Shown: positions 11,063 to 62,026 of the stretch, piece by piece
How positions within the stretch are numbered: the stretch's first letter is position 1
How the letters are laid out: every line of letters begins with the position of its first letter
Source of the DNA: an uncultured Bacteroidales bacterium
GTDB taxonomy: Bacteria; Bacteroidota; Bacteroidia; Bacteroidales; Barnesiellaceae
Direction of reading: 5' to 3'
NCBI GenBank assembly: GCA_949298955.1
Contig: CASFYQ010000002.1
Location: 62,001-126,000, forward strand
Length of the DNA: 64,000 nucleotides
Program-made: the position numbers and the translations under genes
The notes under the pieces: generated by a model
The model's input: the letters and a program-made list of their open reading frames with translations, nothing else
The model's database searches: none
What the model was told of the DNA's origin: nothing

Positions 11063-11173
11063 AAGCGGGCAGGAAGCGCACACCCCCCTTCACTCCTCCG
11101 CCCCCTTTGCAAGCTATTTACAGCTCTTTACAAAACGGTCCGGGATAAAAATCGAGCGGACTTGATGTTTTTA

Positions 11174-11280
11174 TGCTCACCTTTGCGTATATTTGGGCAA
11201 TATGGGATGCGGCTCGGGATAAAAAATATCTGAAACGATGTTTCGATATTTTATTCTCCGCTCACCTTTTTGTATCTTTG
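11174..11280 (+). repeat. Duplicated-promoter element with hairpin, copy 1
   Basis: Two direct repeats with consensus GCTCACCTTT-N2-GTAT-N-TTTG end at 11195 and 11280, exactly 85 bp apart, each ending in a TAnnTTTG box (TATATTTG, TATCTTTG). Between them are GGATGCGGCTCGG (11205-11217) and a hairpin with arms AAAATATC-GAAAC and GTTTC-GATATTTT (11223-11252). A second copy with the same geometry is at 59390-59507. Confidence 0.75.
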
Positions 11281-11327
11281 ACGTATTAAATACAGCTCTT
11301 GAAGAGAGAAGCAGCTCGCAAACATGG

Positions 11328-11357
11328 TTGTGATTCGCTTTCAAATTTGTATCTTTG
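11328..11357 (+). promoter_or_regulatory. Promoter of the sigma-54 activator gene
   Basis: A TTG (11328-11330), 19 bp and TATCTTTG (11350-11357) form a good primary-sigma promoter. It places the start of transcription near 11364, which excludes upstream start codons and supports ATG 11377. Confidence 0.6.
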
Positions 11358-11376
11358 TAACATTGATTCAACGATT

Positions 11377-12639
11377 ATGATTCCCGCAGAAATACAGCAA
11401 ACCAAACAACGGTTCGGCATTATCGGTAACGCCCCGGGCCTGATACGGGCTATCACCCGAGCTTTGCAAATAGCACCCATTGATTTGGCCGTGCTCATCA
11501 CCGGCGAAAGCGGTGCCGGCAAAGAGTTCTTCCCACAGATAATCCATGCCAACAGTGCCCGCAAACACGGGAAATACATTGCCGTCAACTGTGGAGCCAT
11601 ACCCGAAGGCACCATCGACTCCGAGCTTTTCGGCCACGAAAAAGGAGCCTTCACAGGGGCTCTCTCGGCTCGTAAAGGCTATTTCGAAGAGGCCGACGGA
11701 GGCACCATCTTCCTCGACGAGGTAGGTGAACTGCCGCTTACTACTCAGGCCCGACTGCTGCGTGTTCTCGAAAGCGGCGAATTTCTCAAAGTGGGTTCGT
11801 CGACCGTGTTGAAAACCAACGTACGCATCGTAGCCGCCACCAACCTCGACATGGTCAAAGCCGTATCGGAGGGAAAATTCCGCGAAGACCTTTACTACCG
11901 GCTCAGCACCATACACATCGAAATCCCGCCCCTGCGCGAACGGGCCGAAGATATTCTGCTGCTTTTCCGCAAATTCTCTACCGACTTTGCCGAGCGCTAT
12001 CGCATGCCCGTAATCCAACTGACCGACGATGCCCGCAACGTGCTGCTCAACTACCGTTGGCCGGGCAACGTGCGCCAGTTGAAAAATATCACCGAGCAAA
12101 TCTCCATCTTCGAGACCAACCGCGACGTCGACGGAACCACCTTGCAGGGCTATCTGCCGCAATACAACATCGAAAAACTGCCGGTTCGCTCGTCGACATC
12201 GGGCGAACAAGATCACGCTTTCTTCGAAAAAGAGCGCAAAATGCTCTACAAGACACTCTTCGAGATGCAAAAAGAGCTGGCCGAATTGCACGCCAAAGTC
12301 GAAGAACTCACCAAAGGAACACAGGGACAAGGAGGATTCACCCCCTCGGCCCAGCCGGTAACCGTAGCCCGCTCGATGGCTCTTGCTCCGGTCACCACGG
12401 CCATGCCGGTTCACGTGCCGGCTGCCAAGACCAAAACCATCGAAGATACCGAGGGCGAGATAATCTCAAACGAAGCCGAGTATGTGGAAGAACAACCCAC
12501 CACTCTCGAAGACACCGAACGAGAAACGATTCGCAAAGCCCTTATCCGCAACCACGGGAAACGGAAAAAAACCGCCGAAGAGCTGAAAATCTCGGAACGC
12601 ACCCTGTACCGCAAAATCAAGGAATACAACTTAGAATAG
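11377..12639 (+). CDS. Sigma-54-dependent transcriptional activator without a receiver domain
   Basis: From ATG 11377 the product has 420 residues. The AAA+ domain begins almost at once: Walker A GESGAGKE (43-50), the sigma-54 contact loop GAFTGA (90-95), Walker B GGTIFLDE (108-115), and the sensor region WPGNVRQL. A linker with an ERKMLYKTLFEMQKELAELH coiled coil and a low-complexity Ala/Thr/Pro segment leads to a Fis-type helix-turn-helix at the C-terminus (AEELKISERTLYRKI). No receiver, PAS or GAF sensor domain exists, so activity must be set by expression or partners. It is followed within 14 bp by lptE, then a TPR-like gene and secG, which look co-transcribed. The earlier ATG at 11299 lies upstream of the promoter and is rejected. 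Confidence 0.93.
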   Translation: MIPAEIQQTKQRFGIIGNAPGLIRAITRALQIAPIDLAVLITGESGAGKEFFPQIIHANSARKHGKYIAVNCGAIPEGTIDSELFGHEKGAFTGALSARKGYFEEADGGTIFLDEVGELPLTTQARLLRVLESGEFLKVGSSTVLKTNVRIVAATNLDMVKAVSEGKFREDLYYRLSTIHIEIPPLRERAEDILLLFRKFSTDFAERYRMPVIQLTDDARNVLLNYRWPGNVRQLKNITEQISIFETNRDVDGTTLQGYLPQYNIEKLPVRSSTSGEQDHAFFEKERKMLYKTLFEMQKELAELHAKVEELTKGTQGQGGFTPSAQPVTVARSMALAPVTTAMPVHVPAAKTKTIEDTEGEIISNEAEYVEEQPTTLEDTERETIRKALIRNHGKRKKTAEELKISERTLYRKIKEYNLE

Positions 12640-59304: not shown

Positions 59305-59389
59305 AACCGCATCAGGCCTCATCGGTACATTTCGTCCACCCCAACAGGCATTTCTCACTCCTCTTCCCGACAAGATGAGATGACTCTTC

Positions 59390-59507
59390 TTTTGTCTCTG
59401 CGCTTGCCTTTCACTATATTTGAACAATATAGGATGCGGCTCGGCAAAGTCAAAATTTGAAAACATGGTTTTCATTTTGTCTCTGCGCTCGCCTTTCACT
59501 ATATTTG
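59390..59507 (+). repeat. Duplicated-promoter element with hairpin, copy 2
   Basis: Two 33-bp direct repeats (59390-59422 and 59475-59507, one mismatch), exactly 85 bp apart, each end in TATATTTG. Between them are GGATGCGGCTCGG (59432-59444) and a hairpin of CAAAAT/TGAAAAC with GTTTTCA/TTTTG (59451-59479). The offsets match copy 1 at 11174-11280, although the hairpin arms differ in sequence. The second -7 box would drive aroA. Confidence 0.8.
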
Positions 59508-59531
59508 CATACCAAATTCATGGCAAACGAT

Positions 59532-60779
59532 ATGAACTATCAAGTTTTCGCTCCCGCCGACTGTTCGGCCTGCATCGCACTGCCCACCTCCAAAAGCATC
59601 AGCAACAGAGCATTGGTCATCAATGCCTTGTGCGACGGAAACATCTCCGTCGAAAACCTCTCGGAGTGTGACGACACGCGAGTCATGCAGCAGGCTTTTG
59701 CCGGCAGCGACAGCACCGTCGACATACACGGTGCGGGGACGGCTATGCGATTCCTCACCGCCTATTATGCCCAGAAAGAGGGAACTCGCGTCACCCTCAC
59801 CGGGTCTGAACGCATGAAACAACGTCCCATCAAGCTCTTGGTCGAAGCGCTGCGCTCCCTCGGGGCCGACATCAGCTACACCAGCCGCGAGGGATTTCCC
59901 CCGCTCGACATCTGCGGCCACGAGTTGAAAGGCGGCACACTCACCTTGCCGGGCAACGTGAGTTCCCAATACATATCGGCCCTGCTCATGATAGCCCCAT
60001 GTATGCGCAACGGACTCACCCTTACCCTCACCGGCGACATCGTATCGGTGCCCTACATCGAGATGACGCTCGACATGATGGCCCACTACGGCATCGAGGC
60101 CCGGCGCACGGGGCACACCATACACGTGCCACACGGCTCCTACCGTCCTGCCCGCTTCCATGTAGAGCCCGACTGGTCGGCGGCCTCTTACTGGTACGAA
60201 ATCGCAGCCCTCGCCCCGGCGGGCACGATTTTCTTACCCCGACTTACTCGGGAAAGCCTGCAAGGCGATGCCCGCATCGCAGCCCTGTTCGAACCGCTGG
60301 GCGTCAAAACCCTATTTTCTTCGGACGGAGCGAAACTAATAAAATCGGATATTCATACAACCTCCTATTCTTGCAATCTCTCTGAACAGCCCGACTTGGC
60401 TCAAACCCTCGTCGTAACCTGCTGTTTGCTGGGAATCCCGTTCCATTTCACCGGACTGCAAACCCTGCGCATCAAAGAAACCGACCGCATCGCAGCCCTC
60501 TGCAACGAACTTATTAAATTAGGATATAAACTATTATCTTCGGACAACACACTCACTTGGAACGGCGAGACCGTAACCACAACCGAGCATCCGATTATCG
60601 ACACCTACGACGACCACCGCATGGCAATGGCATTCGCCCCGGCAGCCTTTCGCTTTCCGGGCATCGAAATCGCCGATACGACTGTGGTCGACAAATCATA
60701 CCCCCGTTACTGGGACGACCTCGGGCTGGCCGGTTTCTCGCTCCGCTCCACAAAACAGAAAGGAGACATTCCACTATGA
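59532..60779 (+). CDS. aroA: 3-phosphoshikimate 1-carboxyvinyltransferase (EPSP synthase)
   Basis: The sixth shikimate-pathway enzyme. From ATG 59532 it has 415 residues: LPTSKSISNRALVINAL, the catalytic GAGTAMRFLTAYYA, GSERMKQRPI, LPGNVSSQYISALLM, LRIKETDRIAAL and the C-terminal DDHRMAMAFAPA. The -7 box TATATTTG at 59500-59507 puts the transcription start near 59513; ATG 59520 is also possible but would leave only a 7-base leader. The next gene overlaps by 4 bp. Confidence 0.95.
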   Translation: MNYQVFAPADCSACIALPTSKSISNRALVINALCDGNISVENLSECDDTRVMQQAFAGSDSTVDIHGAGTAMRFLTAYYAQKEGTRVTLTGSERMKQRPIKLLVEALRSLGADISYTSREGFPPLDICGHELKGGTLTLPGNVSSQYISALLMIAPCMRNGLTLTLTGDIVSVPYIEMTLDMMAHYGIEARRTGHTIHVPHGSYRPARFHVEPDWSAASYWYEIAALAPAGTIFLPRLTRESLQGDARIAALFEPLGVKTLFSSDGAKLIKSDIHTTSYSCNLSEQPDLAQTLVVTCCLLGIPFHFTGLQTLRIKETDRIAALCNELIKLGYKLLSSDNTLTWNGETVTTTEHPIIDTYDDHRMAMAFAPAAFRFPGIEIADTTVVDKSYPRYWDDLGLAGFSLRSTKQKGDIPL

Positions 60780-61204: not shown

Positions 61205-62026
61205 ATGGACATTCTCAACTATACGTTTTTCCAAAATGCCCTGTGGGCAATACTCCTCATCTCGATTATCAGCGCAATCATAGGCACCTATATCGTGGCC
61301 CGTCGCATGCTTTTCATCACGGGCGGAATCACCCACGCCTCGTTCGGCGGACTGGGTATCGGCTATTTTCTGGGAATAAACCCTACCCTTTCGGCCCTCT
61401 TCTTCGCCATCCTCTCGGCTTTGGGCGTCGATTGGCTTTCACGAGGGAAGACCGTACGGGAAGACTCGGCCATCGCAGTCATTTGGACGCTGGGCATGGC
61501 CGTCGGTATCATCTTCATCTTCATGACTCCCGGCTATACCCCGGGCCTCACCGAATTTCTGTTCGGTAATATTCTCACCATCACCCATACCGACATACTC
61601 GTCTTTGCCACCTTTGCCGCCCTGCTGATAATCTATACCGCCCTGCAATACCGCCGCATCGTCTACACCGCCTTCGACACCGACTTTGCCGCCACCCGAC
61701 GAGTCAACACCCGTCTCGTCAACACCATTATGACCATCTTCGTCGCCACGGCCGTGGTCCTCTCCATACGCCTGGTGGGCATCATGCTGCTCATCTCCAT
61801 ACTTTCCCTGCCGCAGATGATGGCCGAGCTATTCTGCCACAAATTCCGCTCCATCATCTGGCTGTCGGGCATCATCAACCTGCTGGCCGGCATCGGCGGA
61901 CTGATGCTCTCCTACTGGCTCGACGTACCGGCAGGAGCCACCATCGTCTTCACCCTCATCGTCGCCTACCTTGTGGCGAAAATTCTCGCCTCACGCATGC
62001 AGCGAGTTGTCGCTACCAGACAATAA
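61205..62026 (+). CDS. Metal ABC transporter permease (ZnuB/MntB type)
   Basis: A 273-residue membrane protein with about eight spans and the metal-permease signatures GTYIVARRMLFITGGITHASFGGLGIG and SIRLVGIMLLISILSLPQMMAEL. It would pair with a metal-binding lipoprotein and an ATPase for zinc or manganese uptake, neither of which is in this window. It lies 12 bp after the hypothetical gene, in the aroA run. Confidence 0.92.
   Translation: MDILNYTFFQNALWAILLISIISAIIGTYIVARRMLFITGGITHASFGGLGIGYFLGINPTLSALFFAILSALGVDWLSRGKTVREDSAIAVIWTLGMAVGIIFIFMTPGYTPGLTEFLFGNILTITHTDILVFATFAALLIIYTALQYRRIVYTAFDTDFAATRRVNTRLVNTIMTIFVATAVVLSIRLVGIMLLISILSLPQMMAELFCHKFRSIIWLSGIINLLAGIGGLMLSYWLDVPAGATIVFTLIVAYLVAKILASRMQRVVATRQ

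Follow-up and report, generated by a model that had tools for sequence, protein, structure and literature searches.

Hairpin units upstream of a sigma-54 activator gene and aroA

The window analysed here is a stretch of 64,000 nucleotides (positions 62,001 to 126,000) on contig CASFYQ010000002.1 of an uncultured Bacteroidales bacterium of the Barnesiellaceae (source genome G000). Two of its loci share one unit of about 80 bp, AAnATA-GGATGCGGCTCGG-hairpin-CTCGCCTTTCAC-TAnnTTTG, with a second TAnnTTTG box before it. Older degraded units lie upstream at both loci (11136-11195 and 59372-59422). The features are as follows.

11136..11187, + strand: degraded older unit of locus 1 (CGGTCCGGGATAAAAA...CTCACCTTTGCG), recognized by direct repeat with the intact unit and by sequence
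11188..11195, + strand: left -7 box of locus 1, TATATTTG, which fits TAnnTTTG, the Bacteroidota -7 consensus (PMC7366714)
11199..11280, + strand: hairpin unit 1, type III arms GATAAAAAATATCTGAAAC/GTTTCGATATTTTATTC (covariance model R1, 55.1 bits)
11205..11217, + strand: conserved motif GGATGCGGCTCGG in the 5′ arm of unit 1, exact match
11273-11280, + strand: right -7 box TATCTTTG, the 3′ end of unit 1
11377..12639, + strand: gene downstream of unit 1 for an activator with a sigma-54 interaction domain and a Fis-type HTH (Pfam PF00158, PF02954)
59372..59414, + strand: truncated older unit of the aroA locus (sequence; weak R1 match at 59372-59422, 14.9 bits)
59415..59422, + strand: left -7 box of the aroA locus, TATATTTG (sequence, direct repeats)
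59426..59507, + strand: hairpin unit 2, type I arms CAAAATTTGAAAAC/GTTTTCATTTTG (R1, 94.1 bits)
59432..59444, + strand: conserved motif GGATGCGGCTCGG in the 5′ arm of unit 2, exact match
59500-59507, + strand: right -7 box TATATTTG, the 3′ end of unit 2
59520..60779, + strand: aroA (EPSP synthase), downstream of unit 2 (Pfam PF00275)

Over the window, the R1 scores correspond to E values of 1e-25 for unit 2 and 8e-14 for unit 1. The Pfam matches bear out both downstream genes named in a preliminary description of this DNA. That description had also reported promoter-like direct repeats 85 bp apart, and these were found at locus 1 (11175-11195/11260-11280, 86% over 21 nt) and at locus 2 (59390-59422/59475-59507, 97% over 33 nt). 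The spacing is not peculiar to these repeats; it equals the unit length of a tandem-repeat family and ranges from 73 to about 88 bp, 73 bp going with short hairpins. GGATGCGGCTCGG is indeed exact at both loci and at an identical offset from the left box (TATATTTG plus 9 nt). It is, however, no fixed motif apart from the hairpin, as had been thought, but belongs to its 5′ arm; the hairpin placed at about +28 to +57 is present and spans the whole unit.

Between hairpin unit 1 and the ATG of the sigma-54 activator gene (11377) lies a single CRISPR-repeat-like sequence (11327-11372). It matches Rfam CRISPR-DR49 at 39.2 bits, below the gathering score of 41 (E 2.9e-5 in 301 bp), and contains the promoter-like box closest to the gene, TATCTTTG at 11350-11357. 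The whole repeat was found only once in the source genome and is absent from orthologous sigma-54 activator promoters. It is possibly a solo CRISPR repeat turned promoter.

The whole unit folds as one hairpin

Copies follow a common plan: TAnnTTTG, short spacer, AAnATA, GGATGCGGCTCGG, stem-loop, CTCGCCTTTCAC, TAnnTTTG, gene. The element proper measures 70-85 bp (AAnATAGGATGCGGCTCGG, variable stem-loop, CTCGCCTTTCAC) and has AAnATAGGATGCGG and CTCGCCTTTCAC as its ends; its stem-loop comes in at least three unrelated arm types. The entire unit, both ends included, forms one imperfect hairpin, in whose outer stem AAnATA pairs with TATnTT of the second box. From the ends inward, AAnATAG pairs with CTATnTT and GCG with CGC, followed by the stem-loop.

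A consensus fold of a mixed-type MAFFT alignment gave no structure, since short and long arms misalign; the covariation test was restricted to type I units. In the 30 diverse units of type I that were used, pairing held in 92.4% of cells, against 40-56% for control structures slid by 1-3 columns, and double-changed pairs numbered 14 versus 4.9 in shuffles. In the outer stem (AAnATA with TATnTT), GC was seen 17 times, UA 10 times, and AU once. This covariation supports the earlier suggestion of selection on structure, and quasi-palindrome repair could have added to the signal.

Units also stand in arrays of two to four, and arm types may be mixed within one array (L025). Five arrays (L060, L095, L117, L128, and L164) have internal boxes one base short (TACTTTG, TATTTTG, TTCTTTG) and an intact gene-proximal box, as if the last promoter alone were kept. 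In three loci of rumen-type Bacteroidales (L132, L155, and L168), the right box is followed by CGAAGATA and then tactgcactcgg or caccgcactcgg. This sequence resembles a variant 5′ motif, which would suggest additional subfamilies, under-counted by model R1.

Copy number and range

The preliminary description knew of two loci and made its reading depend on further copies. In fact there are dozens per genome, and many were found in the source genome and its relatives. The exact 13-mer GGATGCGGCTCGG occurs seven times in G000 (reversed control, 0). With a box at the fixed distance it is found in 8 of 41 relatives, and the 13-mer occurs in more than 119 stretches of GTDB genomes, nearly all of them Bacteroidales. 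Model R1 detected at least 98 units in the 2.54-Mb genome G000 (15-17 in a 400-kb sample of it) and at least 38-121 units in each of nine Barnesiella species; these counts are minima, as scoring covered 150 candidates.

Under stricter filters, R1 matched 16 of 198 sampled Bacteroidales genomes, a patchy distribution; seven of these 16 hold at least 23 matches. In a class-wide sample, which doubles as negative control of the model, R1 found nothing outside Bacteroidales, its matches falling in G000 and one other Bacteroidales genome only. Loose-pattern matches in unrelated phyla (L090, L105, L112, L113, L122, L130, and others) are without the unit ends and were discarded as chance.

Units occupy promoters and carry the -7 box on both sides

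At 114 of 129 places, the 250 bp downstream include the start of a same-strand ORF of 80 codons or more, as compared with 52% for random positions and 42% in the mirror direction. The median distance from right box to ORF start is 28 nt. Bacteroidota primary promoters have TTTG at -33 and TAnnTTTG at -7 (PMC7366714), and the boxes flanking each unit on both sides fit this scheme. Exactly 20 nt before the right box, 61 of 127 units have TTTG, any other spacing tested giving at most 4; this spacing reproduces the -33/-7 arrangement described in Bacteroides (PMC7366714). In unit 2, the -33 TTTG (59476-59479) lies in the 3′ arm, 20 nt from the right box, and the -33 TTTG for the left box of the aroA locus (59391-59394) comes from the truncated older unit. 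The rebuilt right box would thus be expected, from its layout, to act as a promoter. In contrast to an ordinary Bacteroidota promoter, the promoter here is the target plus part of the repeat, not all of the repeat.

The two variable bases of the left box equal those of the right box in 133 of 153 units (shuffles: mean 69, maximum 86), and the left box agrees with the AAnATA arm in 116 of 153 (shuffles: 56, maximum 74). The agreement holds for the 48 units whose left flank is unlike the element, with left equal to right in 36 versus 21 (maximum 31) and left equal to the AAnATA arm in 35 versus 18.5 (maximum 28). It also holds in within-genome shuffles with one unit per array (77/84 versus 58.6, maximum 71; 69/84 versus 49.5, maximum 62). 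Insertion duplicating the box would explain why left and right boxes agree, and the hairpin explains why the AAnATA arm agrees with the right box. A target-site duplication longer than the 8-bp box was considered but is not proposed, as the three bases preceding the left and right boxes show only weak agreement.

Empty and filled sites among relatives

The comparison was made between species representatives, not strains; the closest pair, G001 and G008, has 92-94% DNA identity, and 19 of its promoters were compared. At one of them (L268/L288), G001 has 'aaatattatTATCTTTGcata' with one TATCTTTG box, whereas G008 has 'aaatatcccTATCTTTGgagAAGACAGG...CCTTTtatTATCTTTGcata' (to CTCGCCTTTtatTATCTTTGcata), with TATCTTTG on both sides of a unit. 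The site is empty in G000, G002, G005, G006, and G007, and holds other units in G003 and G004. At this site, the cleanest of the empty ones, the three bases before the left box differ from those of the empty allele (ccc versus tat) and those before the right box agree. The sigma-54 activator gene provides a second empty/filled pair, G005 having a native promoter without a unit and G002 a promoter with one.

Arrays differ by one unit in L262/L272 and by two in L264/L278 (three units versus one). Orthologous promoters vary in the number and type of units: sigma-54 activator orthologues have 0-3 units of different types, and for aroA there is a unit in G000, a related one in G001, and none in most other species.

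A second, unrelated-looking repeat is present in promoters of sigma-54 activator orthologues, as AAAGATAG...ACACTATCTTTA in G005 (L044) and as AAAGGTAG...ACACTACCTTTA in G002 (L048). Its ends again covary with the box, by the same logic.

Discussion

Taken together, the sequence comparisons suggest that these units are probably mobile hairpin elements of a MITE-like kind, miniature and non-coding, that form one family and insert at the -7 box. Among the three readings offered previously, a mobile promoter cassette is favored by the dispersed family, the empty and filled sites in relatives, the duplicated promoter box, and the orthologous promoters differing in unit number and type; a nucleoid or recombination site gained no specific support. 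At the level of sequence, the hairpin covarying over its whole length, the position and orientation at promoters, and the expansion of arrays complete this picture. Transposition would be the mode by which units spread, presumably through a trans-acting enzyme recognizing the conserved internal loops of the unit.

In the proposed scheme, the element would insert in one orientation at the TAnnTTTG box of a gene's promoter, leaving the box on both sides, with the right copy staying beside the gene. The 3′ arm of the element would bring a -33-like TTTG to 20 nt from this right box. Since the right box is kept and the element supplies its own -33-like TTTG, a working promoter would be rebuilt and the insertion tolerated. 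Later, tandem arrays of units would grow or contract, and units would decay. The arm sequences count against a MITE in that they are more diverse than usual for MITE copies, and they fit a functional structure too. No autonomous long form, in which the two ends would stand far apart and enclose an ORF, was seen in the DNA examined, and the search for a mobilizing enzyme, made in the family Y1_Tnp (PF01797), found none in G000.

The main rival is a selected cis-regulatory RNA or DNA module, in which the left promoter yields a hairpin-bearing 5′ leader subject to binding or processing, the right one serves as internal restart, and the module is spread by recombination and kept for regulation. 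The strong compensatory pairing and the strict position and orientation at gene starts fit such a role. Furthermore, the geometry of the -7 box implies that the n3 spacer would put the RNA start of the left box near AAnATA, at the hairpin's first base. But orthologous genes do not retain the units, as seen for aroA and the sigma-54 activator gene, and this poor conservation at given genes weakens an RNA-regulator role. The patchy distribution across the order, the unrelated functions of the few downstream genes examined, and the lack of an Rfam family also speak against it, and we regard it as unlikely.

A more specific version of mobility is that the element moves as a single-stranded hairpin, its AAnATA arm pairing with the -7 box on the non-template strand, as exposed in open promoter complexes, and a non-Y1 enzyme making the insertion. 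We consider this quite improbable; if true, the choice of target would depend on base pairing between nucleic acids and on transcription itself.

Alternatively, nothing transposes: slippage duplicates promoter segments, gene conversion copies them between loci, and quasi-palindrome repair homogenizes the arms, mimicking covariation. Tandem duplications are directly seen (L264 versus L278, L262 versus L272), and direct and inverted repeats are prone to such events. However, these processes sit poorly with single units that have unrelated left flanks, in about 100 unlinked places, where donor and site share only the 8-bp box, and with the empty site that gained a whole unit. As a full account, they are therefore very unlikely.

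The units are hairpins, stand in one orientation, and have a target box that is complementary to AAnATA and covaries with this arm. These traits would also suit a REP/REPIN-type element, moved on single-stranded hairpins by an IS200/IS605-like Y1 (RAYT) transposase and guided to its target box by pairing of AAnATA. Yet seven of the eight motif-rich genomes, G000 (99.9% complete) among them, lack Y1_Tnp (PF01797), which 24 of 33 other sampled genomes possess, and the unit alignments show neither a GTAG nor a CGTC tag at the foot of the hairpin. Mobilization by a Y1 enzyme in Barnesiella is thus largely refuted, and this origin is extremely unlikely. Phages or plasmids were rejected as the main vehicle, with two IMG/VR contigs found by pattern and eight short unannotated 'phage' scaffolds plus one plasmid by BLAST.

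In its workings, the Barnesiella unit most resembles the Correia elements (NEMIS) of Neisseria, short TIR-bearing MITEs with more than 100 copies, mostly right upstream of genes and providing promoters for their neighbors (PMC10969869). It differs in host phylum and sequence, in having the -7 box itself as the duplicated target, and in its tandem arrays, whole-length covarying hairpin, and several arm types. BrickBuilt of Porphyromonas gingivalis, with 23-nt minisatellites between leader and tail, 19 copies, and lengths up to 991 nt (PMC4596501), is likewise an intergenic Bacteroidales MITE with promoter activity and internal repeats (PMC4596501), but the Barnesiella units have no 23-nt tandem minisatellite. 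REP/REPIN elements with their RAYTs also consist of small intergenic hairpins in high copy number, in some cases arrayed (PMC3733652), whereas our units are without the GTAG tag, bound to promoters, and in one orientation, in hosts from which Y1 is mostly absent.

In Rfam, no family exceeded its gathering score for the hairpin unit in the window, and six loci gave nothing relevant even when E values up to 5 were admitted. Literature searches by sequence (GGATGCGGCTCGG, CTCGCCTTTCACTA, and similar) returned no relevant paper; their coverage is incomplete, which makes them weak evidence of novelty. With neither a literature match by sequence nor an Rfam family, the hairpin repeat family is likely new.

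The units also matter for annotation: work on transcription starts and promoters in these genomes will run into their arrays. A promoter core box as target, with the damage mended by the element itself, would be an unusual route to tolerance for a selfish element. Moreover, a repeat lying in about 100 promoters of a gut bacterium, where it swaps, multiplies, or removes boxes from one sister species to another, would give Bacteroidales a direct and recurrent source of expression change.
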